Below, piece by piece: positions 8,525 through 29,372 of a DNA stretch of 64,000 nucleotides (positions are counted from its first letter, which is position 1; each line of letters starts with the position of its first letter). The DNA comes from Asanoa hainanensis (GTDB lineage Bacteria; Actinomycetota; Actinomycetes; Mycobacteriales; Micromonosporaceae), in the NCBI RefSeq assembly GCF_900188485.1, contig NZ_FZPH01000009.1:1-64000 (forward strand), read 5' to 3'. Made by a program: the position numbers and the translations under genes. The notes under the pieces were generated by a model. That model searched no databases, was not told the origin of the DNA, and was given only the letters and a program-made list of their open reading frames with translations.

Positions 8525-8968
8525 CTAGGCGTTGCGGGCTTCGATGGCCTTGATGGTGCTCGCGAGCCCCTTGCCGAGCACGCCGGCGCCGGTGACGCTG
8601 AGCACCGCCCCGATGGCCTTGCCCTTGAGGTTTTTGCCCTCGCGCACCACGACGACGTCCACATCGGTCGTGCCGTCGGGTCGCGGGGTCAGGTTGTAGG
8701 TGTGGCCCGACTTACCGCCCCAGGTGTTGGAGTCCGTCGTCGTGAGCACGACGTGGTGCGGGTCGGACCAGTCGTAGTGCAGGCGTTCCCAGATGCCACC
8801 GGAGCCTTCGGTGACATCGGCGTGATCAGTGCCGCGCTCGTGCACCTTGAGATATCCGTCGTCACTGCGGCCGAAGAGCTCCGACCGCCCGGGGCCGAAG
8901 TCGGTGAGCCCGGCGACGAACTGCTCGGGCGTCGCGGTGGTCGTCTGGTGAAGCCGAATGGTGGCCAT
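8525..8968 (-). CDS. SRPBCC/START-like protein
   Basis: A 147-residue protein whose pattern (IRLHQTTTATPEQFVAGLTD, then RLHYDWSDPHHVVLTTTDSN and TYNLTPRPDGTTDVDVVVV) matches the SRPBCC helix-grip fold that binds hydrophobic ligands. It ends in a helix (GLASTIKAIEARNA) typical of the fold. No catalytic function can be assigned. It lies 8 bases downstream of aroA on the same strand and is probably co-transcribed with it. Confidence 0.78.
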   Translation of the reverse strand: MATIRLHQTTTATPEQFVAGLTDFGPGRSELFGRSDDGYLKVHERGTDHADVTEGSGGIWERLHYDWSDPHHVVLTTTDSNTWGGKSGHTYNLTPRPDGTTDVDVVVVREGKNLKGKAIGAVLSVTGAGVLGKGLASTIKAIEARNA

Positions 8969-8976
8969 GCTCAACA

Positions 8977-10236
8977 CTAGAACAGCAGCCGGTCGAGATC
9001 CTCGAAGAAGTCCGGGTACGTCTTGGTGACGCAGCCGGGGTCGGCGATCTCGATGCCCGGCACGCGCAGGCCCAGCAGCGACAGGCTCATCGCCATCCGG
9101 TGGTCGTCGTACGTCGCGAACCGGGTCGGTCGGGGCTGACCGGGGTGGATGGTGAACCCGTCGTCGTCCTCGGTGGCGTCGATGCCGGCCCGGCGCAGCT
9201 CGGTGACGATCGCCGCGACGCGGTCGGTCTCCTTGCGGCGGATGAAGCCGATGCCGCGTACCCGGGTGGGCGAGTCGGCGAAGACGGCGACGGCGGCCAG
9301 CGTCTGCGCGGTGTCGGAGATGTCGGCCATGTCGACGTCGACGCCGGTCAGTGGGCCGTCGACGCTGACCGTCAACGAGTCGGCGGTGCGCAGCACGTGG
9401 GCGCCCATCTCGGCCAAGACGTCGGCGAACCGCACGTCGCCCTGCAGGCTCCCGGTGCCGAGCCCTTCCACGGTCACCGTGCCACCGGCCACCGCGGCGG
9501 CGGCCAGCAGGTAGGAGGCCGCGCTCGCGTCCGGCTCGACGGCGTAGTCGGTCGCGCGGTAGGAGCCCGGTGCCACCCGCAGGCCGTCGACCGGGACACC
9601 GAACGCGGCCATCACCGCCTTGGTCATCTCGACGTAGGGCACGGACACCAGGGGAGAGGTGACCTCCACGGCCAGGCCGCCGGCCATCAGCGGCCCGGCC
9701 AGCAGCAGTCCGGACAGGAACTGGCTGGAGATGTGGCCGCTGACCTGGACCGGGCCGCCGCGCAGCGGGCCGCGCACGGTCGCGGGCAGGAACTCGCCGG
9801 CGGAGACGTCCGCGCCGAGGTCGCGCACGGCGTCCAGCACCGGCCCGAACGGCCGGGCGCGCAGCTGCGGGGCGCCGTCGAGCACGGTGTGCCCCGGCCG
9901 CGCCGCCGCGACCGGCAGGACGAACCGGGCCGTGGTGCCGGACTGGCGGGCGTCGACCGCGATGTCCGAGGTGCCGGCACGGAGGTCGACCCCGGTCACG
10001 GTGACGCGGGAGGTGGCTGGGTCGGCGTCGACGGTGGCGCCCAGCGCGGTGATCGCGCCCAGCATCGCCCGGGTGTCGTCGGCGAACAGCACGCCGCTCA
10101 GCGTCGAGGTGCCCGGCGCGAGCGCGGCACACAACAGCGCCCGGTTGGTGATGCTCTTCGAGCCCGGCGGGCGCACGACGGCATCGAGCGGCCCACGCGA
10201 GGGGGAAACGGCCAGGACGTCCGGGAAATCAGGCAC
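8977..10236 (-). CDS. aroA: 3-phosphoshikimate 1-carboxyvinyltransferase (EPSP synthase)
   Basis: A 419-residue EPSP synthase, which joins shikimate-3-phosphate and phosphoenolpyruvate in the shikimate pathway. Signatures are complete: GSKSITNRALL near residue 24, QSGTTARFVLP near 95, a QVSGHISSQFLSGLL segment, IRRKETDRVAAI and DDHRMAMSLSLLG near the C-terminus. The start is a GTG (VPDFPDVLAV); the reading frame stays open upstream but similarity begins here. Length is typical of the two-domain enzyme. Downstream is the SRPBCC gene; upstream is a tetR gene on the same strand 11 bases away. Confidence 0.95.
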   Translation of the reverse strand: MPDFPDVLAVSPSRGPLDAVVRPPGSKSITNRALLCAALAPGTSTLSGVLFADDTRAMLGAITALGATVDADPATSRVTVTGVDLRAGTSDIAVDARQSGTTARFVLPVAAARPGHTVLDGAPQLRARPFGPVLDAVRDLGADVSAGEFLPATVRGPLRGGPVQVSGHISSQFLSGLLLAGPLMAGGLAVEVTSPLVSVPYVEMTKAVMAAFGVPVDGLRVAPGSYRATDYAVEPDASAASYLLAAAAVAGGTVTVEGLGTGSLQGDVRFADVLAEMGAHVLRTADSLTVSVDGPLTGVDVDMADISDTAQTLAAVAVFADSPTRVRGIGFIRRKETDRVAAIVTELRRAGIDATEDDDGFTIHPGQPRPTRFATYDDHRMAMSLSLLGLRVPGIEIADPGCVTKTYPDFFEDLDRLLF

Positions 10237-16011: not shown

Positions 16012-16049
16012 GGTGTTGGCCCGGCCCGCGCGCGGGCCGGGCCAACACC
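16012..16049. terminator. Bidirectional terminator hairpin
   Basis: A perfect 19-base inverted repeat with no loop bases beyond the turn: GGTGTTGGCCCGGCCCGCG followed directly by its reverse complement. It sits between the convergent AhpD-like and flotillin genes and touches the flotillin stop codon. It lacks a long T-run, as is common for actinomycete terminators. Confidence 0.8.
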
Positions 16050-17539
16050 TACTTCACCGCCGGCGTCTCGCCGCCGTTGGCCCGATCGCCGAGCCGCGCC
16101 AGCAGCGCGGGCAGGTCGACACCGGTCAGGTCCGAGCCGAGCTGCAGACCCTGCGCGACGTTGCCGGCCACGGACTTCGCCAACGACGACGCGCCGTCGG
16201 TGGAGATGACGGTCATCTTGTCGATCGCGCTCATCGGGCGGCTGGCGGCCTCGACGACCTCGGGCAGCACCCGCACGAGCAGGTCGAGGACCGCGGCCTC
16301 GCCGTACGTGGCGAACGCGTCGGCCTTGCGGGCCATCGCCTCGGCCTCGGCGTTGCCCTTGGCCAGGATCGCCGCCGCCTCGGCCGAACCCTCCCGCTCG
16401 ATCGCGTCGGCGATGGCGGTGCGCCGGCGCTGCTCGGCCTCGCCCTCCTTGGCACCTTCGATCGCGTTGGCCTCCGCCAGCGCCGCCCGCCGGGCCCGCT
16501 CGCCCTCACCGGTCAGCCGCGCCTGCTCGGCCACGGCCTGCGCGGCCGCGATGGTCGCCTGGCGCTCGGCGTCGGCCCTCAGGACGGCCGCGTTGCGGGA
16601 CGCCTCGGCCTCCTGCTCGACCTTGTAGCGGGCCGCGTCGGCCGGCTTGCGCACCTCGGTGTCGAGCTGGCGCTGCTTGAGCTCGGCGTTGCGCTCGGCG
16701 ACCTTCTGCTGCTCGGCCAGGATGGCCTGGTCGCGCTCGGCCGTGGCGAGCGGGCCGGCCGCCGCCGACCGGGCCTTGGCCGCGTCGATCTCGGCCTGGA
16801 TGCCCGCCTTCTTCAGCGCGAGGTTGCGCTCCGCCTCGGCGATCGCCTCCTCGGCCAGCAGGCGCTCCTGCTCGGCGGCCTGCCGCGCGCGGGCCTCGGC
16901 GATGGACGCCTCCTTGAGCACCCGGGCGGCCTCGGGCCGGCCGAGGTCCTGCAGGTAGGACCCTTCGGCGACGATGTCCTGCAACTGGAACGTGTCGAGC
17001 ACCAGACCCTGGTTGGTCATCGAGTGCTCGGCCTCCTCGGCCACCGCCGACGCGAACGCGGCGCGGTCCCGGATGATCTCCTCGATGGTGAGCCGGCCGA
17101 CGATCGCGCGCAGCGAGCCGGCCAGCACCTCGCGGGTGAACTCGTCGATCTCGGCCTGCTGGCGCAGGAACCGCTGCCCGGCCGCGCGGATCGCGTCCTC
17201 GGTGCCGCCGACCTTGACGATCGCGACGCCGTGCAGCGCGGCGCGGATGCCCTGCTTGGTGACCGCGCCGGTGATCTCGACGTGGATGCGCCGGCTCGAC
17301 AGGTCCAGCGACTGGAGCTTCTGCACCACGGGCACGACGAACACCGAGGCGCCCATCACGACCTTCTGGCCGGACAGGTCGGTCTGCCGGATGCCGTCGG
17401 ACGACACGGTGGCGCGGCCCTTGCGGCCGGTGACGATGAAGGCCTCGTTGGGCCCGGCCACCTTGATGCGGGAGAGCACGAACATGACCAGGAGCAGGAC
17501 CAGCAGCACGGCGCCGCCGATCCCGATGAGGAGTGGCAT
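16049..17539 (-). CDS. Flotillin-like SPFH-domain membrane protein
   Basis: A 496-residue flotillin-family protein. One N-terminal membrane segment (LLIGIGGAVLLVLLLVMFVL) is followed by an SPFH/band-7 domain (about 30-230), then a long Ala/Glu/Lys/Arg-rich coiled coil (about 230-420) and a flotillin C-terminal region (about 430-496). Flotillins organise membrane microdomains and often pair with NfeD proteins, as here: the NfeD-like gene is 12 bases upstream on the same strand. Length is typical. Confidence 0.93.
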   Translation of the reverse strand: MPLLIGIGGAVLLVLLLVMFVLSRIKVAGPNEAFIVTGRKGRATVSSDGIRQTDLSGQKVVMGASVFVVPVVQKLQSLDLSSRRIHVEITGAVTKQGIRAALHGVAIVKVGGTEDAIRAAGQRFLRQQAEIDEFTREVLAGSLRAIVGRLTIEEIIRDRAAFASAVAEEAEHSMTNQGLVLDTFQLQDIVAEGSYLQDLGRPEAARVLKEASIAEARARQAAEQERLLAEEAIAEAERNLALKKAGIQAEIDAAKARSAAAGPLATAERDQAILAEQQKVAERNAELKQRQLDTEVRKPADAARYKVEQEAEASRNAAVLRADAERQATIAAAQAVAEQARLTGEGERARRAALAEANAIEGAKEGEAEQRRRTAIADAIEREGSAEAAAILAKGNAEAEAMARKADAFATYGEAAVLDLLVRVLPEVVEAASRPMSAIDKMTVISTDGASSLAKSVAGNVAQGLQLGSDLTGVDLPALLARLGDRANGGETPAVK

Positions 17540-17551
17540 CTGGACTGCCCT

Positions 17552-18076
17552 TCAGGAGAGGGGGTGCACCGGCTCGACGACGACGCTCGTCTCGCTGGCG
17601 GCCTCGACGACGAAGATCTCGGTGCCCGCGGACAGCGGCCGGTCGGCCTTGGCGTACAGCTTGATCGGTTGCCCGCCGAGGCGGACCCGCACTTCGCCGT
17701 AGCCGGTCGCGGTGATCGGTGTGACGACGACGCCGGTGGTGCCGACGAGGTCGGCCCGCGTGGGCGTGGCGTCGGTGTGCATGTTGCGGGCGGCCCGCGA
17801 CAGGCGGACCGTGAGAAACCCCGCGGGCAGCGCGGCGACCACGCCCACGGCCACCGCCGCCACCACGGCTTGGGTCGCGCCCGCGCCGACGAGCTCGTTG
17901 GTGATCGCCGCGGTGAACCCGAACGCACCGAGGAAGCCCGCGAGCGTCTCGATGGAGAACAGGTCAGGCAGGTCGAGGTGTCCTAATTGGAACAGCTCGG
18001 CGCCGAGCAGCGAGAGGGCCAGCACCGCCACGCCGGCGCCGCCGATGACCAGGAAGACAACGGTTGCCCCGTCCAT
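17552..18076 (-). CDS. NfeD-like membrane protein
   Basis: A 174-residue protein beginning MDGATVVFLVIGGAGVAVLA. It has about three membrane helices (residues 5-25, 42-62, 72-95) and a C-terminal OB-like NfeD domain (ADLVGTTGVVVTPITATGYG to IFVVEAASETSVVVEPVH). It is the usual partner of flotillin and is translated just ahead of it. The ATG shown is preferred over longer readings upstream because the membrane segment starts there. Confidence 0.85.
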   Translation of the reverse strand: MDGATVVFLVIGGAGVAVLALSLLGAELFQLGHLDLPDLFSIETLAGFLGAFGFTAAITNELVGAGATQAVVAAVAVGVVAALPAGFLTVRLSRAARNMHTDATPTRADLVGTTGVVVTPITATGYGEVRVRLGGQPIKLYAKADRPLSAGTEIFVVEAASETSVVVEPVHPLS

Positions 18077-18141
18077 CCGCACCGCCCTCCCCGTGTCCTG
18101 AGTGCAGGGTAGCGACCACGCGCCAGGGGAGAGAGCAGGCG

Positions 18142-18173
18142 AAAGGGCCGGGTGCCCGCGCACCCGGCCCTTT
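18142..18173. terminator. Rho-independent terminator
   Basis: AAAGGGCCGGGTG and CACCCGGCCCTTT form a perfect 13-base stem with a CCCGCG loop. A/T tracts flank both sides, so it can work in both directions. On the minus strand it closes the nine-gene sugar operon, 15 bases past its last stop codon, and insulates the NfeD/flotillin pair. Confidence 0.88.
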
Positions 18174-18187
18174 TCGGGATCGGTCGG

Positions 18188-19708
18188 TCAGCTGACGGTG
18201 ATCGTCACCCGGTCGTAGCGGGTCAGCGGGAACTGGCCGTCGTCGGTGCCCTGCACGATGACCGAGATGGTCTGGCCGCGCACGGCGTCAGCGGGGACGT
18301 GGACGGTGCCACCCGCCGAGACCGGCACCGCGCCGGGGTAGGTGCCCTCCTCGCGGTACTGCCACCAGCTCGTGGTGACGCGGTCGTGGTCGGGGTCCGA
18401 GGTGCGCGCGCTCAGCGACACCGTCGATCCCGGCCGCGCCCGCACGCTGTCCTTGCCCCGCACCTGGACCGACGGTGCGTGGTTGCCGTCCCGGTAGCTC
18501 GGGGTCAACGTCCACTGGATCCGGGCCGCGAAGTCGTTCTGTGCCGCGGCCGCCCAGCGCAGGGTGGTCAGGTTGGCCACCGGCGTGCCGGTCGCGTCGA
18601 CCTCCGTGGACGCCATCGTCCACAGGTCCGGCGACGTGGTGGTCTGGGTGGCCCGGCCACCCCAACCGCCGAGCAGCGGGTTCGCCGGGTCCTCGATGCC
18701 CGTCCTGAGCAACGGGTTGAAGGCGACGTTGTCCCCTTCGGACAGGAAGTCGTACGGCGCGAGCGGCTTGCACCACCCGCCCGGCGCGAGCACCGGGTCG
18801 CCGAAGATGTCGAGCTGGTCGCCCGGCATCGACTGGCCGTCGAGCCACGAGCGGTACAGCGAGCCGTACGGGCCGATCTGGATGTTGTCGCGGATCCACG
18901 GGCCGCTGAAGTAGACCCGGTCGGCCGGCAGCCCACGCACGTTGCCCTGGCCGCCGCGGTTGCAGTTGTAGCCCCACGTCGAGTAGCCGGCGGACAGCTG
19001 CTCGACCCGGATGCCCGGCCACGCGGGCGCGATGTAGTCCTGGTACGTCTCGTCCTGGAACCCGCTGGCCAGGATGACCGCCTTGTGCGACACCTTCTCC
19101 TGGACGGCGGCCCACTTACGGGTGCCGGCGTACTGCGACTCGATGGACTTCAGCGCCCGGGCGATGGTGCTCGTGCCGCCCCACGCCTGCAGATACAACG
19201 GCCGCTTGTCGTTGTCCAGCAACAGCTTCCTGATGAGGTCCGAGCCCGGCGTGTCCTTCGCCATCTCGCCCTCGAACTCGATGTTGCCGAGCTTGATCAT
19301 CGACTTCAGCTTCGCCGGGCTGGGGTAGTCGCTGTCGTGCCGGCGCAGGTTCGGGTAGGCGGCGGCGTACGCCGGCAGCACGTGGTCCTCGATGTAGGTC
19401 GAGCCGACCCACCGCCACGAGGTCTGCGGCGTCGAGTACTCCCGGCCCGGGAGGAAGAACTCGGTGCCCTGGCCGTCGCCGGACCAGTGGAACCGACCGC
19501 TGGCGTAGACGATGCCCTCGGTGTCGACCTCGTTGGTGTAGAGCAGGTAGCGGATCAGGGACGCGAGGTCGTCCTGTTCCATGTCGGTCGTGACGACGGT
19601 GCGGGGCTTGTCGGCGCGGTCCGAGCCGTGGGCTGATGCCGGCGCGGCACCGATCGTGGCGGTGACGGCGACCGCCAGGGAAACGGCGGCCAGTAGTCGT
19701 AGGCGCAT
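18188..19708 (-). CDS. Secreted DUF1593 nucleoside-hydrolase-like protein
   Basis: A 506-residue exported protein with a signal peptide ending APASAHG near residue 28. The mature N-terminus carries TTDMEQDDLASLIRYLLYTN, a variant of the nucleoside-hydrolase metal motif DTDxGxDD that keeps the paired Asp. The nucleoside-hydrolase-like domain runs to about 330, and an Ig-like beta domain (about 410-506, HAPSVQVRGKDSVRAR onward) completes it. DUF1593 members are uncharacterised. It is last in a sugar-uptake operon, 18 bases after the isomerase gene, which suggests it frees a furanose sugar outside the cell. Confidence 0.85.
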   Translation of the reverse strand: MRLRLLAAVSLAVAVTATIGAAPASAHGSDRADKPRTVVTTDMEQDDLASLIRYLLYTNEVDTEGIVYASGRFHWSGDGQGTEFFLPGREYSTPQTSWRWVGSTYIEDHVLPAYAAAYPNLRRHDSDYPSPAKLKSMIKLGNIEFEGEMAKDTPGSDLIRKLLLDNDKRPLYLQAWGGTSTIARALKSIESQYAGTRKWAAVQEKVSHKAVILASGFQDETYQDYIAPAWPGIRVEQLSAGYSTWGYNCNRGGQGNVRGLPADRVYFSGPWIRDNIQIGPYGSLYRSWLDGQSMPGDQLDIFGDPVLAPGGWCKPLAPYDFLSEGDNVAFNPLLRTGIEDPANPLLGGWGGRATQTTTSPDLWTMASTEVDATGTPVANLTTLRWAAAAQNDFAARIQWTLTPSYRDGNHAPSVQVRGKDSVRARPGSTVSLSARTSDPDHDRVTTSWWQYREEGTYPGAVPVSAGGTVHVPADAVRGQTISVIVQGTDDGQFPLTRYDRVTITVS

Positions 19709-19726
19709 GCGACCTCCTTCGTCTGG

Positions 19727-20716
19727 CTATTCGGCGGGGGAACCGAACAGGGCGTCCTGGACGATGCGTTGCGCGGCCATCGCGTCCTGCCGCTCCTGTG
19801 CCTCCGCGAGCGCGGTGACGTCGAGCCGGTCGAGGGCGCGGTGGATCCGCTTGAGGGTGCCGATCGCGGTCTTCGCCGCGTCGACGCTGTCCTCGCGGAA
19901 CGGGAACTGGTCGAGCTGCCAGACGCCGTCCCAGTTGTTCTTGCGCAGGGTGTGGAAGAACTCGAAGATCTCGGTCAGGTGGACGGTGCCGACCACGAGG
20001 TCGTCGTCCCAGCCGCGCAGGTTGTCGTTGACGTCCATGCCGAACAACCGGCCGTGGTCGATGATGAGCTGGGCCGCGTCCGCGGGCGACTCGCCGCCGT
20101 AGAGGCTGTGGCCGAAGTCCAGCAGGACCCCGACGTTGTCGAGGCCGATCTGCTGGATGCCCAGCAGGGTGCGAGCGGCCGAGTCCCAGGTCATCTTGAC
20201 CCGGGGCTCGCGGGGCTTGTACTCGATCGCGAACTTGAGGTCCGGGTGCGCGCCGGCGAGCTCGCGCATGCCGTCGACCGCGAGCTTCCACAGTGTTCGG
20301 TGGTCGACCTGGAACGGGTAGTCCCACCCGTCCTGGCCCGGCCAGATCTTCACGTAGTCGGCGCCGAGCTCGCGGACCACGCCGGCCGCCTCGTGCATCA
20401 GGTCGAGGGCGGCCTTGCGGGCCGCCGGGTCGGGGTTGGTGAACGCGCCCCGGCCGAACCGGCGCAGGTAGATCTCGGGGGTGATGCCGATCGCGCCCAG
20501 GCCCTGCGCGGCGAGCGCGTCCTTGACCTCGCTGAGCCCGACGCCAGGGGTGAACGGGTAGTTGAGGTCGACGACGGACAGGTCACCGACCTGACCGGCC
20601 AGCTCGATGGCGTCCAGCGTCGTGCGCGCCGGGCCGTAGCCGTCGGTCGCGTAGCGGTCGACGTAGGTGGCGAAGTGCCAGAGGCCGGCACCGAAACGGG
20701 GGTACGTGCTGGGCAT
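19727..20716 (-). CDS. TIM-barrel sugar isomerase, likely D-apiose isomerase
   Basis: A 329-residue xylose-isomerase-like TIM barrel (sugar phosphate isomerase/epimerase family). Metal-ligand candidates are the Glu of [12 protein letters not shown], the Asp-His of [12 protein letters not shown] and the acidic cluster in [15 protein letters not shown]. In the known D-apiose pathway an enzyme of this type (ApsE) turns D-apiose into D-apulose. Here it is grouped with an FGGY kinase and a split transketolase, the other two activities of that pathway. GGGAG precedes the ATG. A role on another pentose or branched sugar is possible. Confidence 0.8.
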
Positions 20717-20721
20717 GCTGA

Positions 20722-22110
20722 TCAGCTCCCGGGGTGAGGGGCGGACGGGGTGCGGGCCCGGGCGACGGCGGTGTGCCAGGCGGCGCGGGCCTCCTGGGCT
20801 CCGGCGCCGGGCCGGGGATGGAAGTCGTCGTACTCGATCGGCGGGTGCAGCCCTCCGGCCAGGAAGGCGGCGCCGAGCGCGGACAGGTTCGCGGTGCGGG
20901 CCCGCCGGACCGGCACGCCGGCCAGGTCCGCCTGGATTTGCATGAGGGTGTCGTTGCCGGTGGCGCCGCCGTCGGCGAGCAGCCGGCCGGCCGGTCCCAG
21001 CGCGTCGACCACGTCGGCGACCTGGTGCGCGATCGACTCGATGGCCGCCCGGGCGACCTGGGCCGGCCGGGTGCCGAGGGTGAGCCCGCTGAGCACGCCG
21101 ACTGCGCTGTCGTCCCACCACGGCGCGGCCAGCCCGCCGAACGCCGGCACGAGGTGCACGCCGTCGCTGGACGCTTCGTCGGCGAGCTCGGCCACCCGGG
21201 CGGGGTCGACGCCGAGGAACTCCGCGAGCCAGAGCACGGTGGCGCCGGTGGAGCGGATGTTGCCCTCGGCGGCCAGGCGGATGCCCGGGTCTCCCCACGC
21301 GACCGTCAGGCACACCGCGTCGCTGGGCACGGTGGAGACCAGGCCCATCACCGACGACCCGGTGCCGTAGGTGACTTTCACGCCGCCGTCGACCTGCGTG
21401 CCATGGGCGTACAGGGCCGCGTGCGAGTCGCCGAGCACCGCGGTGATCGGCAGCCCGGCGAGGACGCCGCCGGCCGCGCCGATGGTGCCGAGCGAGCCGG
21501 CCGACGGGGTCAGGGCCGGCAGCGCGCTCTCCGGGATCCCGAACAGGTCCAGCAGTTCGGGGCTCCAGGACCCGGACCGCACGTCGAGCAATTGGGTACG
21601 CGACGCGTTGCCGACCTCGATCTGGTGGCGGCCGGTCAGCGCGTACAGCAGCCAGGCGTCGACCGTGCCGACCGCGGCGTCCGGTGTGCGGTCGAGCAGC
21701 CAGCGCAGCTTGGCCGCGCTGAACATCTGGTCCAGCGGCAGCCCGCTGATCCGGCGGATCTCGTCGGCGTGGGTGCGGAGGTCGGCACACGAGGCCCGGC
21801 GGTCCTGCCAGCCGAGCACCGGTCCGGCGGGCCGCCCGGTGCGCCGGTCCCAGACCACCGCCGACTCGCGCTGGGTGCTGAGGCCGACCGCGTCGACGGC
21901 GCCGCGCGGCACCCCGTCCAGGCAGGCCCGCGCGGCGGTCAGGACGCTGGCGAGGATCTCGTCCGCGTCCTGCTCGACCCAGCCCGGCGCCGGGTACCGG
22001 ATCGGCACCGGGGCCGAGCCGCTGGCCACGACCGTGCCGGACCGGTCGACCAGGAGACACTTCGTGGAGCTGGTCCCCTGGTCGATCGCCAGGACGAGGC
22101 CGTCAGGCAT
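20722..22110 (-). CDS. FGGY-family carbohydrate kinase, likely D-apulose kinase
   Basis: A 462-residue FGGY kinase with an N-terminal phosphate motif ([20 protein letters not shown]), the active-site region [19 protein letters not shown], and a C-terminal nucleotide motif ([20 protein letters not shown]). It phosphorylates a sugar or polyol with ATP. By context the substrate would be D-apulose (AplK type); xylulose or glycerol cannot be excluded from sequence alone. The start overlaps the transketolase gene by 8 bases and the isomerase follows 5 bases after its stop. Confidence 0.88.
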
Positions 22111-23050
22111 CGGCGCGGGCCAGGTCGACCACCGCCGCCCGGATGTCCGAGGCGGCCAGCCCGAAGTGCTCCAGCAGGAACGCGGTGCTGCCCGTCGGCG
22201 CGAACTCGCGGTGCACGCCGAGCATCCGCATCGGCACCGGCGCGCGCTCGGCGACGACCACCGCCGCGACCGCGGCACCGAGACCGCCCGTCGTGGTCGC
22301 CTCCTCGGCGGTGACGATCCCGCGCGTCTCGCGCATCGCCCGGCGGATCACGTCCTCGTCCAGCGGCGCGATCGTCGACATGTTGAGCACCCGCACCGAC
22401 ACGCCGTCCGCCAAAGCCTCGTCAGCGGCGGCCAGCGCACGGGACACCATGGTGCCGGCCGCCACCACCGTGACGTCGCTTCCGTCCCGCAGCAACGTCG
22501 CCGTGCCGAAGCTGAAGGAATCGGTGACGGCGGGGACTTTGAACCGGCCGATCCGCAGGAACACCGGGGTCGCCGCCGACGCCGCCCAGCGCACGGCGGC
22601 GCGCGTCTCGGCCGGGTCGGCCGGCACGACGATGCCGAGGCCGGCGATCGCCCGCAGCCACGACAGGTCCTCGATCGAGTGGTGGGTGGGTCCGAGCTCG
22701 CCGTACGCCATGCCAGGGCTCATGCCGCACAGCACGACGGGCGACTGGCTGTACGCGACGTCGGCCTTGATCTGCTCGAGCGCGCGACCGGTCAGGAACG
22801 GGGCGGCACCGCAGACGAACGGCACGTAGCCGCTGAGCGCCAGGCCCGCGCCGACACCGACCATGTCCTGCTCGGCGATGCCGACGTTGATCAGCCGGTC
22901 GGGGAACTCCTTGGCGAACGCGACCAGGTTGCTCGAGCCGACGGAGTCGTTGCACACGGCCACGATCCGCTCGTCCGCCCGGGCCAGCGCGAGCAGCTCC
23001 TCGGCGAACGCGACCCGACAGTCAAAAGTCTCGGCCACCATCGTGCTCAT
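22103..23050 (-). CDS. Transketolase C-terminal subunit
   Basis: A 315-residue protein with the pyrimidine-binding and C-terminal domains of a split transketolase. The catalytic Glu lies in INVGIAEQDMVGVGAGLAL, and the C-terminal domain runs from about 190. Together with the upstream N-terminal subunit it forms a thiamine-diphosphate enzyme. In the D-apiose route such a pair (AptA/AptB) converts apulose 4-phosphate and glyceraldehyde 3-phosphate to dihydroxyacetone and xylulose 5-phosphate. The start overlaps the N-subunit stop by ATGA; a GTG nine bases downstream is an alternative. Confidence 0.88.
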   Translation of the reverse strand: MSTMVAETFDCRVAFAEELLALARADERIVAVCNDSVGSSNLVAFAKEFPDRLINVGIAEQDMVGVGAGLALSGYVPFVCGAAPFLTGRALEQIKADVAYSQSPVVLCGMSPGMAYGELGPTHHSIEDLSWLRAIAGLGIVVPADPAETRAAVRWAASAATPVFLRIGRFKVPAVTDSFSFGTATLLRDGSDVTVVAAGTMVSRALAAADEALADGVSVRVLNMSTIAPLDEDVIRRAMRETRGIVTAEEATTTGGLGAAVAAVVVAERAPVPMRMLGVHREFAPTGSTAFLLEHFGLAASDIRAAVVDLARADA

Positions 23051-23928
23051 CGGGCCAGCTCCGCCATCGCGTCGGTGATCTGCTCGGGGGTCGGCACCTT
23101 GTGGTGCCACTCGACTCGGTCCTCCATGAAGGAGACGCCTCTTCCCTTGATCGTGTTGGCGATGACGCAGGTCGGCCGCTCGCCCCGGGGTGCGGTGAAC
23201 GCCGCCAGCAGGGCGAGGTGGTCGTGGCCGTCGACCTCGATCACGTCCCAGCCGAAGCTACGCCACTTGGCGTCGAGTGGATCAAGGGCACTGGTCTCCT
23301 CGGTACGCGCGCCCTGCTGGAGCCGGTTGCGGTCGACGACCGCGGTGAGGTTGGCCAGGCGGCGGTGCCCGGCGGTCATCGCGGCCTCCCAGTTGCTGCC
23401 CTCCTGGAGCTCACCGTCGCCGAGCACGACGTACACGTGCCGGTTCGACGCGGCCAGCCGCCCCGCGACCGCCATGCCGACGGAGACCGGCAGCCCGTGG
23501 CCGAGGGGACCGGTGTTGGTCTCGACACCGGGCACCTTGACCCGGTTGGGGTGGCCGTTGAGCGCCGAGTGCGGCCCGGCGAACGTGTCGAGCTCCTGCG
23601 CGGAGAAGAACCCGGCGGCCGCGAGGGTCGCGTACAGCGCGCCGGCGGTGTGGCCCTTGCTGAGCACGAAGCGGTCGCGGTCGGCCCAGTCGGGCCGCTC
23701 CGGATCGACCCGCAGCACGGCGAAGAACAGGGTGGTAAGGATGTCGAGGACGGACAGGTCGCCGCCCACGTGACCGAGACCGGCCCGGCCGATCATCTGG
23801 AGGTCGGTGGTGCGGGACTGGTTGGCCCGCCGCCGCAGCATCTCGCGGCGGCGCTCGGGTCCGGAGTCGGCGAGGTCCTGACGGAATCGACGCCAGGCGG
23901 CAGCGGCCCGGGGGTCGGCGACCAGCAT
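23047..23928 (-). CDS. Transketolase N-terminal subunit
   Basis: A 293-residue thiamine-diphosphate-binding subunit. Landmarks are RAGLGHVGGDLSVLDILTTL, FVLSKGHTAGALYATLAAAG and the ThDP/metal motif GDGELQEGSNWEAAMTAGHR. It pairs with the next gene to make a two-chain transketolase; housekeeping transketolases are single chains. It sits between the periplasmic-binding-protein gene and the C-subunit gene in a sugar catabolic operon. Confidence 0.88.
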   Translation of the reverse strand: MLVADPRAAAAWRRFRQDLADSGPERRREMLRRRANQSRTTDLQMIGRAGLGHVGGDLSVLDILTTLFFAVLRVDPERPDWADRDRFVLSKGHTAGALYATLAAAGFFSAQELDTFAGPHSALNGHPNRVKVPGVETNTGPLGHGLPVSVGMAVAGRLAASNRHVYVVLGDGELQEGSNWEAAMTAGHRRLANLTAVVDRNRLQQGARTEETSALDPLDAKWRSFGWDVIEVDGHDHLALLAAFTAPRGERPTCVIANTIKGRGVSFMEDRVEWHHKVPTPEQITDAMAELAR

Positions 23929-23994
23929 GGTTGCCCTTTCTGTGGTGTTGACTGTCGCGGGCGGGCCGCGTCGGACGGCCCGCCCGCGCGGCGG

Positions 23995-25008
<1,014 letters not shown>

Positions 25009-26082
25009 TCAGGCGGTACGTTTCGCGAGCCCGGACTGCAGCCGTTGCTGCGCCTGCTCGGTGATGACGGCGAAGACGATCACGGCGCCCTTGACCACCG
25101 ACTGCCAGAAGGTGGAGACGCCGACGAGGACGAGGCCGTCGCTGAGGAAGCCGATGACGAAGGCGCCCATGACGGTGCCGATGATGGTGCCGCGACCGCC
25201 GGCCAGGGCCGTGCCGCCGAGCACGGCGGCGGCGATGGCGTTGAGCTCGTACGTGGTCGCGGTGTCCGGGTACGCCGCGCCGAGCTCCGAGGTGAGCAGC
25301 AGGCCCGCCAGCGCCGCGCAGGCACCCGAGATGACGTACACGGCGATCTTGACGCGGTTGACCCTGATGCCCGAGAGCACCGCCGCCCGCTCGTTGCCGC
25401 CGACCGCGTAGACCCGGCGGCCGAACGGCGTGCGCGTGGTGACGACGATCGCCGCGGCGGCCACCGCCGCCATGATCCAGACAGCGACCGGGATGCCGAG
25501 CAGGCTGTCGACGCCGATGACGTGGAAGCCCTGGTTGCCGCGCTCGGGCGTGCCCGCGAGGTCGGGGAACGTGCCGCCGTCGCTGCGCAGCTGCGCGACG
25601 CCGCGGGCGACGTAGAGCATGCCGAGCGTGGCGATGAACGGCGCCACCTTGAACCGGGTGACCAGCAGGCCGTTGACCGCGCCGACCAGGGCGCCGACCA
25701 CGATGCCGATGAGGATGACCACGGCCACCGAGAAGAAGACGGTGCCGCCCGGTAGGGCCAGGCCGGTGAACAGCAACCCGCCGGAGACCATGCTGGCCAG
25801 GCCGGCGATCGAGCCCACCGACAGGTCGATGCCGCCGGTCAGGATCACGAACGTGACGCCGATGGCGAGGATCGCGTTGATGGCCACGTGCTTGGTCATC
25901 AGGATCAGGTTGCTCTGCGTCAGGTACTCGGGGGAGATCGCGCTGAAGAACGCGACCAGCACGACGAGGACCACCAGCGTGCGCCCGCGCAGCAGCAGGA
26001 GCGCGGCCTTCGCCAGGGCCTGGTTGCCCGGCGGCGCCTCGGCCGGCGCCGGTGCGGGCGGCGCGACTGTGGTGTCGGTCAT
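25009..26082 (-). CDS. Sugar ABC transporter permease (RbsC type)
   Basis: A 357-residue permease of the BPD_transp_2 family with about nine membrane segments and the family signature LTGGIDLSVGSIAGLASMVS near residue 82. GGTALAGGRGTIIGTVMGAF near the C-terminus contacts the ATPase. The first 30 residues are a Pro/Ala-rich cytosolic tail. Its start overlaps the stop of the ATPase gene by ATGA, and the substrate-binding protein follows 24 bases downstream. Confidence 0.93.
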   Translation of the reverse strand: MTDTTVAPPAPAPAEAPPGNQALAKAALLLLRGRTLVVLVVLVAFFSAISPEYLTQSNLILMTKHVAINAILAIGVTFVILTGGIDLSVGSIAGLASMVSGGLLFTGLALPGGTVFFSVAVVILIGIVVGALVGAVNGLLVTRFKVAPFIATLGMLYVARGVAQLRSDGGTFPDLAGTPERGNQGFHVIGVDSLLGIPVAVWIMAAVAAAAIVVTTRTPFGRRVYAVGGNERAAVLSGIRVNRVKIAVYVISGACAALAGLLLTSELGAAYPDTATTYELNAIAAAVLGGTALAGGRGTIIGTVMGAFVIGFLSDGLVLVGVSTFWQSVVKGAVIVFAVITEQAQQRLQSGLAKRTA

Positions 26083-27593
26083 GCCATGACTCCCTCGGAC
26101 GCGGAGGCCGTGACCAGGGCCTCCTCGGTGACGTTCGCGGCGGTGAACTCGGCGGTGACGCGGCCGCGGGCCATCACCAGCACCCGGTCCGCCATGGCGA
26201 TGACCTCGGCGAGCTCGGAGGAGATGAACAGGACGCCGAAGCCGGCGGCGGCGAGCTCGGCCATCAGGGTGGCGATCTGGCCCTTGGCGCCGACGTCGAT
26301 GCCGCGGGTCGGCTCGTCGAGCAGCAGCACGACGGGCTCGGTCAGCAACGCCCGGGCGAGGACCACCTTCTGCTGGTTGCCGCCCGAGAGCGCGGTGACG
26401 GTGGCGGCCAGCCCCGGCATCTTGATCGCCAGCTCGGCGACCTTGGCCGCGGCGGTGCGTTGCTCGGCGCCGCCGCGCAGCAGTCCGGCCTTCGTCAGCC
26501 GGCCGATGGTGGCCAGCAGGATGTTGTCGCGCACCGACATGGTCTGCACCAGGCCGTCGCGCTGGCGGTCCTCGGGCACCAGCGCCAGCCCGGCTTTCAG
26601 GCGCGCCCGCACTGTCGCCTTGGGTTCGAGGGTGCCGCGGACACGGACCTCGCCGGTACTGGCCCGCCGCAGGCCCATCAGGCACTCGACGAGCTCGGTG
26701 CGCCCGGCGCCCATGAGGCCGTAAACGCCGACCACCTCGCCGGCCCGCACGGTCAGCGACACGTCGTCGACCAGCGCTCTCGTCGGTCCGGGCACCGTGA
26801 GGTTCCGGACGTCGAGCAGCACGTCGCCCGTCGGCGAGGTGTTGCGGGTGTAGAGCGTGTCGGGGTCGCGGCCCACCATCTGCCGGACGATCCAGCCGGT
26901 GTCGGTGCGGCTCATCGACTCGTGCGCGACCAACCCGCCGTCGCGGAACACCGTGACCCAGTCGCCGATGCGCCGGAACTCGTCGAGCTTGTGCGAGATG
27001 TAGATGACCGTGACGTCCTGCGCGCGCAGGTCACCCATCACGTCGAAGAGCACGTCCACCTCGTGGCTGGACAGTGCCGACGTCGGCTCGTCCATGATCA
27101 GCACGCGGACGTCCTCCAGCAGCGCCCGGCCGATCTCGACGAGCTGCTGCTGGCCGATCGGCAGGTCGCCGACGAGGGTGTCCGGGTCGAGGTCCTGGCC
27201 CAGCCTGCGCAGGACCTCTCGGGTGCGCCGGCGCTGCTCGCCGCCGTCGACGAACCGCCGCGCCCGGCGCAGCTCCCGCCCCGCGAAGATGTTCTCCGCG
27301 ATCGACAGGTTGGGGAACAGGCTCAGCTCCTGGTGGATGATGCCGATGCCGCGCGCCATCGCGTCCCGGGGGCTGGCCAGCTTGACCGGCTCGCCGTCGA
27401 GCAGGATCTCGCCGGCGGTCGGCTGCTCCGAGCCGGACAGGATCTTCATCAGCGTCGACTTGCCGGCGCCGTTCTCACCGACCAGGACATTGACCTTCCC
27501 CCGGTACGCGGTGAAGGTGACGTCCTTGAGCGCCCGCACCCCGCCGTAGCTCTTGCTCACCCCGCGCGCGACCAGGACTTCATCGGAGGTCAT
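26079..27593 (-). CDS. Sugar ABC transporter ATPase, two-domain (RbsA type)
   Basis: A 504-residue CUT2-family ATPase with two nucleotide-binding domains. The first has Walker A GENGAGKSTL near residue 39, signature LPIGQQQLVEI and Walker B VLIMDEPTSAL. The second has the usual degenerate Walker A (GLMGAGRTE), signature ALSGGNQQKVVLAR and Walker B VLLLDEPTRGID. It overlaps both neighbours by ATGA, so translation is coupled from the DUF2291 gene onward. Confidence 0.94.
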   Translation of the reverse strand: MTSDEVLVARGVSKSYGGVRALKDVTFTAYRGKVNVLVGENGAGKSTLMKILSGSEQPTAGEILLDGEPVKLASPRDAMARGIGIIHQELSLFPNLSIAENIFAGRELRRARRFVDGGEQRRRTREVLRRLGQDLDPDTLVGDLPIGQQQLVEIGRALLEDVRVLIMDEPTSALSSHEVDVLFDVMGDLRAQDVTVIYISHKLDEFRRIGDWVTVFRDGGLVAHESMSRTDTGWIVRQMVGRDPDTLYTRNTSPTGDVLLDVRNLTVPGPTRALVDDVSLTVRAGEVVGVYGLMGAGRTELVECLMGLRRASTGEVRVRGTLEPKATVRARLKAGLALVPEDRQRDGLVQTMSVRDNILLATIGRLTKAGLLRGGAEQRTAAAKVAELAIKMPGLAATVTALSGGNQQKVVLARALLTEPVVLLLDEPTRGIDVGAKGQIATLMAELAAAGFGVLFISSELAEVIAMADRVLVMARGRVTAEFTAANVTEEALVTASASEGVMA

Positions 27594-28258
27594 GAGGCCA
27601 CCGCGAGCTCGGTCGGCACCAGCAGGATCGACGGCGCTCCGGGCAGGGCGGCGAAGGCGCCGTAGAAGGTGACCTCCTTGCCGGTCACCGCGGCCAGGTC
27701 GAGCTTGGCGATCACCTCTGTCTTCACCTTGCTGTTGATCTCGTTCGCCACCTCGGCGTACTCGATTTGGTTGGTGAAGTCCCCGAACGCGATGAAGCCG
27801 ACGCCGTCGCGGACCGCGGTGCCGGCGATGACCGGGCCGGTCGCGATCGTCAGCGTCAGCGGCTTGCCGCCGGGCCGCGCGACCTCCACGGTCATCGGCC
27901 CGGTGGGCACCGAGGTGTCGACCTTGGTGACCGTGCCGGTGCCCATGACCATGAAGGCGTACGGGCTGCCGCTGCCGGCCTGGTGTCCGTACTGCTTGCC
28001 GGCGGCGGCCGGGTCCTGCTCGAGCGCGGCGGCCACCGTCACGATGTCGACCGCCTTCTCGTGGACCGTCGGCACGATCCGGGCGGACCAGGCGTCGGCC
28101 ACGTAGCTCTTCGCGTCGGCCGGCGCGGCCGTGGCGGCCGCGCCGTCACGTTCGTAGACGTAGATCCCGGGGACCTTGGCGCAGGCTGCCAGCGCCAGCG
28201 CGAGCACCAGCCCCGCGACGGCGGCGCAACGGCGAAGAGTTAGCATCTGAATATCCAT
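27590..28258 (-). CDS. DUF2291 lipoprotein of sugar-transport operons
   Basis: A 222-residue lipoprotein with signal sequence and lipobox LALAACAK. The DUF2291 body includes ARIVPTVHEKAVDIVTVAAA and TGKEVTFYGAF near the end. DUF2291 proteins recur as the first gene of RbsA/RbsB/RbsC-type operons; their role is unknown, perhaps as an accessory to the transporter. It opens the nine-gene operon, divergent from a SorC regulator. The ATG giving MDIQML or the ATG four codons later could be the start. Confidence 0.85.
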   Translation of the reverse strand: MDIQMLTLRRCAAVAGLVLALALAACAKVPGIYVYERDGAAATAAPADAKSYVADAWSARIVPTVHEKAVDIVTVAAALEQDPAAAGKQYGHQAGSGSPYAFMVMGTGTVTKVDTSVPTGPMTVEVARPGGKPLTLTIATGPVIAGTAVRDGVGFIAFGDFTNQIEYAEVANEINSKVKTEVIAKLDLAAVTGKEVTFYGAFAALPGAPSILLVPTELAVAS

Positions 28259-28373: not shown

Positions 28374-29372
28374 GTGAGCCCGAAGTTCGACGCGAACGCC
28401 GGCGTGGAGCCCTACGGCGTCGCCGACGAACACACCCGGCTACTGACCAAAGTGGCCCGGATGTATCACGAGCGCGGCCTGCGCCAGCCCCAGATCGCCG
28501 AGCAACTGCACATCTCCCAGCCGCGCGTCTCGCGCCTGCTCAAGCAGGCGGTGGCCCTGGGCATCGTCCGCACCGTGGTGATCACCCCGCGCGGCGTGCA
28601 CGCGGAGCTCGAGGAGGCGGTCGAGCAGCGCTACGGCCTGACCGAGGTGGTCATCGCCGACACCGACGGCCAGACCGAGGAGTCCGCGGTCACCCAGGCG
28701 ATCGCGTCCGCGGCGGCGGTTTATCTGGAGACCACGCTGATCCGCAACGACCGCGTCGGCATCTCGTCGTGGAGCGGCACCCTGCTGGCCACGGTCGACG
28801 CGATGCACCCGACCCCGAGCCTGTCGGCGGAACGCGTGGTGCAGATTCTCGGCGGTGTCGGCACCAGCGCGGCCCAGAGTGCGGCAACCCGACTGACCGG
28901 CGGCCTGGCCCGCAACACCCGTGCCGAGGCCGTCTACCTGGTGGCGCCGGGCCTGGTCGCCACGCCGGCGATGCGCGACGCCCTGGTCCACGAGCCGAGC
29001 ATCGCGTCGGTGATCGAGGCCTGGCAGGACCTGACGGTCGCGCTGGTCGGCGTCGGCAGCCTGGCGCCGTCGAAGCTCCTGCGCCAGAGCGGCAACGCGA
29101 TCGCCGCGGAGGAGGAGCAGCGCCTGCGCGAGGTCGGCGCGATCGGCGACGTCTGCATGCGCTTCTTCGACGAGCACGGCCAGCACGTCGCGTCCCCTTT
29201 GGACGATCGCGTGCTGGGCATCAGCGCCGAGACCCTCAAGAAGGTCCCGCGCCGCGTCGGGGTGGCCGGCGGAGAGCGTAAGTGGCGCGCGATCCGCGCG
29301 GCCCTCAGCGGCGGCTGGCTCAACGTCCTGATCACCGACCACGCCACCGCGCTGGACCTGGTCGCCGACTAG
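28374..29372 (+). CDS. SorC-family sugar-responsive transcriptional regulator
   Basis: A 332-residue SorC/DeoR-type regulator. An N-terminal helix-turn-helix (LRQPQIAEQLHISQPRVSRL, about residues 36-55) is joined to a sugar-phosphate-binding domain (about 75-330). GTG follows AGGAGG. It is divergent from the DUF2291/transporter operon across 115 bases and is the obvious candidate to sense a phosphorylated intermediate of that pathway. No clear long palindrome was found in the gap. Confidence 0.9.
   Translation: MSPKFDANAGVEPYGVADEHTRLLTKVARMYHERGLRQPQIAEQLHISQPRVSRLLKQAVALGIVRTVVITPRGVHAELEEAVEQRYGLTEVVIADTDGQTEESAVTQAIASAAAVYLETTLIRNDRVGISSWSGTLLATVDAMHPTPSLSAERVVQILGGVGTSAAQSAATRLTGGLARNTRAEAVYLVAPGLVATPAMRDALVHEPSIASVIEAWQDLTVALVGVGSLAPSKLLRQSGNAIAAEEEQRLREVGAIGDVCMRFFDEHGQHVASPLDDRVLGISAETLKKVPRRVGVAGGERKWRAIRAALSGGWLNVLITDHATALDLVAD

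Follow-up and report, generated by a model that had tools for sequence, protein, structure and literature searches.

A D-apiose operon of Asanoa hainanensis that ends in a secreted DUF1593 protein, a putative apiofuranosidase

We analysed a stretch of 64,000 nucleotides from the Asanoa hainanensis contig NZ_FZPH01000009.1 (the whole stretch is called the window below), in which nine minus-strand genes at 18188-28258 form an operon for D-apiose uptake and catabolism whose last gene encodes a secreted protein of the DUF1593 family. Open reading frames and a Pfam scan confirmed this operon as genuine and closely packed. An earlier prediction, made from the DNA alone (the original prediction), had proposed it, and all of its genes are indeed found on the minus strand, with overlaps or gaps of no more than 66 bases between them. 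The features of the locus are as follows.

18135..18185, minus strand: hairpin after the operon, -32.4 kcal/mol, z -3.8, short U run
18188..19708, minus strand: secreted DUF1593 protein (Sde182_NH-like plus Sde0182_C), candidate apiofuranosidase, 506 amino acids (aa); PF07632 E 1.8e-59, PF21027 E 1.5e-18
19727..20716, minus strand: xylose-isomerase-like TIM barrel, probable D-apiose isomerase, 329 aa; PF01261; PDB 3ktc E 6e-177
20722..22110, minus strand: FGGY kinase, AplK-like, 462 aa; PF00370/PF02782; 42% identical to Escherichia coli SE15 AplK
22103..23050, minus strand: transketolase C-half, AptB-like, 315 aa; PF02779/PF02780; 37% to SE15 AptB
23047..23928, minus strand: transketolase N-half, AptA-like, 293 aa; PF00456; 46% to SE15 AptA
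23995..24984, minus strand: sugar-binding protein of a CUT2 ATP-binding cassette (ABC) importer, apiose-type, 329 aa; PDB 5ibq E 1.6e-118
25009..26082, minus strand: CUT2 ABC permease; PF02653; 54% to the SE15 permease
26079..27593, minus strand: CUT2 ABC ATPase; PF00005 in two stretches; 47% to SE15
27590..28258, minus strand: DUF2291 lipoprotein; PF10054 E 1.7e-55; 28% to the SE15 DUF2291 protein
28374..29372, plus strand: divergent SorC/DeoR-type sugar-sensing regulator; PF04198 E 6.8e-61; 39% to the SE15 cluster regulator

In the direction of transcription, the order is DUF2291, ATPase, permease, binding protein, transketolase N-half, C-half, FGGY kinase, isomerase and DUF1593. Neighbouring genes overlap by 4, 4, 4 and 8 bases or are separated by 24, 66, 5 and 18 bases. 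The DUF1593 gene starts, by its coordinates, exactly 18 bases past the isomerase gene and is the last of the operon, just as predicted, while the divergent regulator at 28374-29372 (PF04198) is an addition to the original gene list. The “strong terminator” placed behind the operon fared less well: the hairpin folds stably, but its U run is short and it is not among the calls of a terminator scan of the window. It is likely a terminator or a stabiliser of the 3' end. A promoter scan found no promoter.

Clusters for the D-apiose transketolase pathway were reportedly described by Carter and colleagues in 2018, and the operon appears, with good support from homology, to be a further example of this already known type. 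In a PDB sequence search, the closest solved relatives of the binding protein were 5ibq, which we take to be an apiose complex, and 4ry0, both at E about 1e-118 (1.6e-118 for 5ibq). The binding protein is also 69% identical to that of a Rhizobium apiose cluster, and the DUF2291 lipoprotein (PF10054) accompanies the importer. The isomerase matched 3ktc, presumably from Pectobacterium, over residues 4-326 (E 6e-177), with the next PDB match at E 2.5e-18. An assignment as xylose isomerase was rejected, since the best score of a true xylose isomerase is E 2.5e-18, far behind the 6e-177 of 3ktc. The probable D-apiose isomerase is also linked to other apiose genes in many genomes. Seven of the eight operon genes other than DUF1593, together with the divergent regulator, have counterparts in the apiose cluster of E. 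coli SE15 (kinase 42%, transketolase halves 46% and 37%, binding protein 43%, ATPase 47%, permease 54%, DUF2291 28% and regulator 39% identity). The functions of FGGY apulose kinase and split apulose-4-phosphate transketolase are predicted by homology only (42%, 46% and 37%), and an operon for ribose or another pentose was ruled out by the match of the whole gene set to apiose clusters. Growth on D-apiose is reported for strains of E. coli and E. fergusonii that carry the cluster defined from SE15, in passages of PMC13001218 that do not name SE15 itself. Overall, the proposed D-apiose catabolic operon with an RbsABC-type transporter and DUF2291 is well supported by the PDB matches and by the identities to the SE15 and Rhizobium clusters. 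Of the proposed enzyme names, AplK, AptA and AptB agree with the homology to SE15, whereas ApsE is unsure for the isomerase; the Pectobacterium D-apiose isomerase is named apsI in a passage of PMC13001218, and this may be the right name.

The DUF1593 protein has a signal-peptide-like N-terminus ending in ASA/HG, as judged by eye, and belongs to PF07632 (Sde182_NH-like) with 201.9 bits against a curated cut-off of 26.8. Its AlphaFold2 model (pLDDT 91.2) has PDB entry 2yhg as the top Foldseek match (TMt 0.83), followed by nucleoside hydrolases, and 2yhg is also its sole sequence relative in the PDB at E 0.001. In the Pfam scan, the protein matched neither PF01156 (nucleoside hydrolase, at E 0.001), to which it is related via its fold, nor PF13204, the GH140 catalytic domain. 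An alignment of 65 sequences revealed an acidic motif that is almost invariant: D42 and E44 are each kept in 64 of 65, D46 and D47 in all 65, D219 in 63 of 65, and D326 in 63 of 63 ungapped sequences. In a profile comparison, this motif aligned with the PF01156 proteins of the same clusters, if weakly (probability 59%, E 9e-5). Viral contigs scanned with DUF1593 yielded no relative.

The neighbours of DUF1593 were tabulated across genomes, a check suggested by the original prediction, and the outcome strongly favours a link to apiose in Actinomycetota (18/18 family genomes and 26/76 loci). The first of these counts comes from 250 genomes of the window's family, its own included, in which we recorded isomerases at E 1e-40 and clear PF07632 matches above 30 bits; unclear PF07632 matches in G020 (27.3 bits), G031 (26.9 bits, a PF01156 protein) and G218 (22.3 bits) were dropped. 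The isomerase occurs in 24 of these genomes and clear PF07632 in 18, and all 18 fall within the 24, each with a copy at most 14 kb from the isomerase (hypergeometric P 1e-22, uncorrected for kinship, with six genera among the 18 genomes and 12 genomes in one genus). Similarly, DUF1593 is found in 16 of 20 isomerase neighbourhoods, the exceptions being L063, L069, L070 and L073. The operon is patchy in its distribution: the draw included five further genomes of this genus, all without an isomerase (E 1e-40) or PF07632 match. A phylum-wide draw of 396 genomes was too sparse for a co-occurrence test, with DUF1593 in two genomes, the isomerase (at least 49% identity) in three, and both genes together only in the window's genome. 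One family neighbourhood (L072, genome G082) has five divergent DUF1593 genes next to the isomerase, all inside 12 kb and one with a CBM2 domain; a pectate lyase with CBM2 and a malectin/CBM6 protein are encoded there too.

The second count rests on loci drawn without reference to apiose. Among 76 distinct loci obtained from the best 80 of 123 DUF1593 relatives, the isomerase (E 1e-60 or better) lies in 26, not counting a partial isomerase at the edge of L134, and the isomerase or another core set lies in 32. About nine gene orders occur among the 26, with DUF1593 placed behind the isomerase or the binding protein, divergent from the isomerase, ahead of the operon, or within a longer gene run. 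Gene calls on some loci were home-made, with an occasional wrong strand or missed gene (the DUF1593 gene of L167 was uncalled). The other 50 loci lead to 47 genomes (one locus was left out and two pairs share a genome), of which 14 have an isomerase outside the examined stretch, sometimes just past its end; three of these 14 (G655, G656 and G670) were already among the genomes of the 26. No isomerase lies in the examined stretch of the Microbacteriaceae loci; one of their genomes (G665) carries it elsewhere. In a quick tree of DUF1593 with several long branches, isomerase-linked copies require at least 15 changes on starred branches, a figure from a partly biased set, as L055-L074 were picked for having an isomerase and only L075-L157 are unbiased.

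Genes resembling those of the oxidative apiose route also occur beside DUF1593. An ApnL-like protein is found with a short-chain dehydrogenase/reductase (SDR), a PF16896-type dehydrogenase and TIM-barrel proteins in L112, L114 and L157; L105 has part of this set, and L160, around the DUF1593 gene of genome G564, holds it as well. The ApnL-like protein of L157, whose gene is cut by the locus edge, matches NF049900 (D-apionate lactonase) at E 8e-55, with 186 bits against a cut-off of 750. Its neighbours encode PF16896, triosephosphate-isomerase-like and dihydroxyacetone-kinase-like proteins, and the Rhizobium cluster has counterparts of its ApnL-like protein (38% identity) and of its PF16896 protein (42%). 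In the family of G564, an ApnL-like protein occurs in nine of the ten genomes with DUF1593, compared with 39 of all 199 (P 1.6e-6); it is not always close to DUF1593 (9 kb away in G564, more than 100 kb in G764). Counting either marker, isomerase or ApnL-like protein, 30 of the 47 genomes have one, including 30 of the 31 actinobacterial ones; the exception is a metagenome-assembled genome (G659).

The predicted location of DUF1593 varies with the type of transporter. Signal peptides in the loci were called by a home-made hydropathy rule. By this rule, 22 of the 26 isomerase loci combine a signal peptide with CUT2, three (L127, L139 and L147) have neither, and one (L152), whose examined stretch stops at the ATPase, has a signal peptide without CUT2 (Fisher P 0.0015, or 0.0004 leaving out L152). 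In the Arachnia loci L139 and L147, the apiose genes are immediately preceded by genes, all on one strand, for GH3, GH43 and GH78 glycosidases and a DUF1593 without signal peptide, the latter between the glycosidases and the apiose genes; in L139 an oligopeptide-type ABC ATPase precedes DUF1593. Secretion with CUT2 and a cytosolic protein without it are as expected of an enzyme that frees the sugar on the side of the membrane where the glycoside is opened. The match is not universal, as L157, which has no isomerase, carries genes of both CUT2 and Opp-type importers with a DUF1593 lacking a signal peptide.

Outside Actinomycetota, the picture is more varied. A Croceibacterium plasmid carries DUF1593 32 bases past an isomerase 70% identical to that of the window, and an operon of Maribacter litopenaei (L159) contains a Fucose_iso_C protein, both transketolase halves, two DUF1593 genes, CUT2 parts, an FGGY kinase and a third DUF1593 gene. 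In L159, the Fucose_iso_C protein stands at the place of the xylose-isomerase-like one, and several genes look frameshifted in the assembly. On a Selenomonas plasmid, DUF1593 lies between a beta-glucoside phosphotransferase system and a GH1 enzyme, with a rhamnosidase also there. Other plasmid DUF1593 loci, without an isomerase, show xylan- or pectin-like settings; in the Pantoea strain of L080, an isomerase homologue is carried by a different plasmid. The DUF1593 family is probably not uniform.

Taken together, these data link DUF1593 to apiose use in Actinomycetota, a conclusion that we hold with high confidence. From the genomic linkage and the conserved acidic residues, we further consider it probable, though with appreciable doubt, that DUF1593 is an apiose-releasing glycosidase, a putative apiofuranosidase. 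Such a secreted furanosidase supplying apiose had been the central proposal of the original prediction; it stands as the best reading of the gene linkage, while on the side of activity it stays an inference, to which a binding-only role or another linkage are alternatives. In the proposed mechanism, the secreted and probably calcium-dependent protein would act outside the cell, using the acidic cluster D42/E44/D46/D47 and D326 of its nucleoside-hydrolase fold to remove terminal D-apiofuranosyl residues by hydrolysis from plant glycosides or pieces of the cell wall. Homology argues well for uptake of the free D-apiose by the CUT2 importer. In the described pathway, apiose is converted to apulose, which is acted on by a kinase and then a transketolase; homology and operon context suggest that here D-apiose would be converted to D-apulose by the isomerase, phosphorylated by the FGGY kinase and cleaved by the two-subunit transketolase. 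The divergent SorC-type regulator probably senses a sugar phosphate of the pathway. A broader proposal, to which we give an even chance, is that DUF1593 represents a new family of glycoside hydrolases, made up of calcium-dependent apiofuranosidases with the fold of nucleoside hydrolases. Its members would be secreted in bacteria that import apiose as the free monosaccharide and stay in the cytosol in those that take in intact glycosides; the family would occur in Actinomycetota, Alphaproteobacteria and Bacteroidota and be linked with two or more different apiose routes. The divergent Gly-Asp PF01156 proteins would form a second branch of O-glycosidases on this fold.

Several observations weigh against an apiose-releasing DUF1593. 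The window's own genome has a PF13204 (apiosidase-family) gene about 295 kb from the operon, and PF13204 occurs in nine of the 24 isomerase genomes, so apiose release may not need DUF1593. A clear DUF1593 is missing from six of the 24 (G023, G031, G075, G163, G175, whose contig stops just past the isomerase, and G219), and four of the 18 DUF1593 genomes (G078, G103, G229 and G231) have further clear copies on contigs other than that of the isomerase. In the phylum draw, two isomerase genomes besides the window's lack DUF1593, and G564, the only other DUF1593 genome, lacks the isomerase. Oxidative-route genes lie in the examined stretch of just four of the 76 loci, and all ApnL-like matches fall under the curated NF049900 cut-off. 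Neither marker was matched in any of the 16 non-actinobacterial genomes behind the loci, most non-actinobacterial DUF1593 loci are without recognised apiose genes, and the isomerase is absent from six of the seven plasmid loci examined (nine records matched). On a plasmid of Pantoea sp. SOD02 (L161), the annotation places no apiose gene within 12 kb of a gene that is 78% identical to the window isomerase. Finally, Sde_0182, the relative of known structure, is described in a review as inactive on nucleosides.

The last of these points bears directly on a non-catalytic role, in which DUF1593 would bind furanoses or tether apiose-rich polymers as substrate, with catalysis left to PF13204/GH140 or other glycosidases. 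Consistent with such a role, the PDB entry of Sde_0182 is titled cellulose-binding protein, some DUF1593 proteins carry CBM2 or PKD domains, and the window's genome has a PF13204 protein of its own. However, the acidic motif is nearly invariant across the 65 sequences, and polymer tethering makes little sense for DUF1593 proteins without a signal peptide, some of which are encoded in one run with glycosidases; we regard this explanation as improbable. A glycosidase for another linkage that accompanies apiose, such as an arabinofuranosyl or alpha-linked furanoside, would leave the freeing of apiose to PF13204 or others. DUF1593 and PF13204 genes lie side by side in L163 and in one cluster in L095, which, with the nine PF13204-bearing isomerase genomes, suggests that the two may do different jobs. 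Several divergent DUF1593 genes can share one cluster (five in L072), and some lie in xylan- or pectin-type settings without an isomerase. Yet the Arachnia loci have GH3, GH43 and GH78 and no match to two PF13204 queries in the examined stretch, and DUF1593 is linked to genes of each of two apiose routes, which makes another linkage unlikely, if still worth keeping in mind. An operon for a different branched or short sugar, with the apiose assignment wrong altogether, has in its favour that the pathway enzymes come from broad families, that a close Pantoea isomerase homologue lies apart from apiose genes and that the isomerase comparison lacked a reference enzyme. Against it stand the binding protein, with its best PDB match to 5ibq and its 69% identity to that of a cluster annotated for the apionate route, and the seven pathway and transport genes plus regulator that match a cluster type of E. 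coli found in strains able to grow on D-apiose, according to passages of PMC13001218; a wrong sugar is thus very improbable, and an apiose-releasing role remains our preferred reading of DUF1593.

Some further gene neighbourhoods deserve mention. On the window's own contig, a second sugar cluster (L165, G000:C42:315000-327000) holds a solute-binding protein, a LacI regulator, an ApnL-like protein (32%), a PF13204 protein and a GH3-like gene. L163, L164 and L166, from the same family, share a recurring module of LacI regulator, PF01156-like protein, ABC importer and PF13204-like protein, directly followed in L163 by DUF1593; protein families were tested for L163 only. Divergent nucleoside-hydrolase-like proteins recur in apiose-linked clusters, and the ten aligned all keep the Asp motif and the Gly-Asp pair. 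They include the following.

L069:14312-15241, L073:7503-8366, L114:8895-9995 and L163:5054-5968: PF01156 shown
L127:4591-5595 and 8911-9777, L139:16727-17725 and L147:8964-9995: assigned by similarity

Beyond the hairpin in the window, the minus strand encodes a flotillin-type protein (16049-17539; PF01145, PF15975); ahead of it lies the gene of a small membrane protein (17552-18163) that has no Pfam match.

To our knowledge, few apiose-releasing enzymes are known. A literature search found no apiose assignment or enzymatic activity for DUF1593, though papers that name the family otherwise (e.g., PMC5294722) could escape it. The “new function” claimed for DUF1593 is new in this respect, as the apiose assignment was not found in print, but the furanose idea is older: part of a 2017 paper proposes a furanose-acting role for the family. 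According to PMC10602602, apiose is a component of the pectin of plant cell walls and of over 1,200 plant metabolites, apiin among them. If the proposed role is true, a family whose structure was solved in 2011 gains a substrate and the nucleoside-hydrolase fold a branch of O-glycosidases. A single obtainable substrate, apiin, would then allow tests of many genes that still lack an assignment, in bacteria of soil and gut and in those associated with plants.

Compared with known systems, the DUF1593 protein shares its setting with GH140 (Pfam Apiosidase, PF13204), which occurs in apiose clusters of other genomes (L070 and L095) and beside DUF1593 in L163, but it has no PF13204 match and a fold other than the one we take to be that of GH140. 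With the inosine-uridine nucleoside hydrolases (PF01156), it shares the fold and a DxxxDD-type motif that aligns, weakly, with the PF01156 proteins of the clusters; it differs in having no PF01156 match, in an extra beta-sandwich domain and in Gly-Asp (G325-D326), where true nucleoside hydrolases presumably have His-Asp. Its closest relative of known structure, Sde_0182 of Saccharophagus degradans (PDB 2yhg, PF07632), has the same fold (TMt 0.83, 25% identity) with aligned acidic and EGD motifs, and a passage of a review ascribes to it a preserved calcium ion. The same review gives Sde_0182 three carbohydrate-binding domains, whereas the window protein is stand-alone, secreted, to judge from its signal-peptide-like start, and encoded in an apiose operon. 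At the level of the operon, the E. coli SE15 D-apiose cluster has the same CUT2 importer, DUF2291, FGGY kinase, split transketolase and SorC-type regulator at 28-54% identity; E. coli is without the isomerase, according to a passage of PMC13001218, and the annotated stretch of its cluster shows no DUF1593, whereas the window operon has both. The oxidative apiose/apionate cluster on plasmid p1 of Rhizobium leguminosarum, in which oiaX (3-oxo-isoapionate-4-phosphate decarboxylase, an enzyme of the oxidative apiose route) is annotated, has other catabolic enzymes and no DUF1593 annotated in the examined stretch. Its transport genes nevertheless resemble those of the window (binding protein 69%, DUF2291 33%, ATPase 49% and permease 57% identity), and the 69% identity of the binding proteins indicates that this importer type is common to two different apiose routes.

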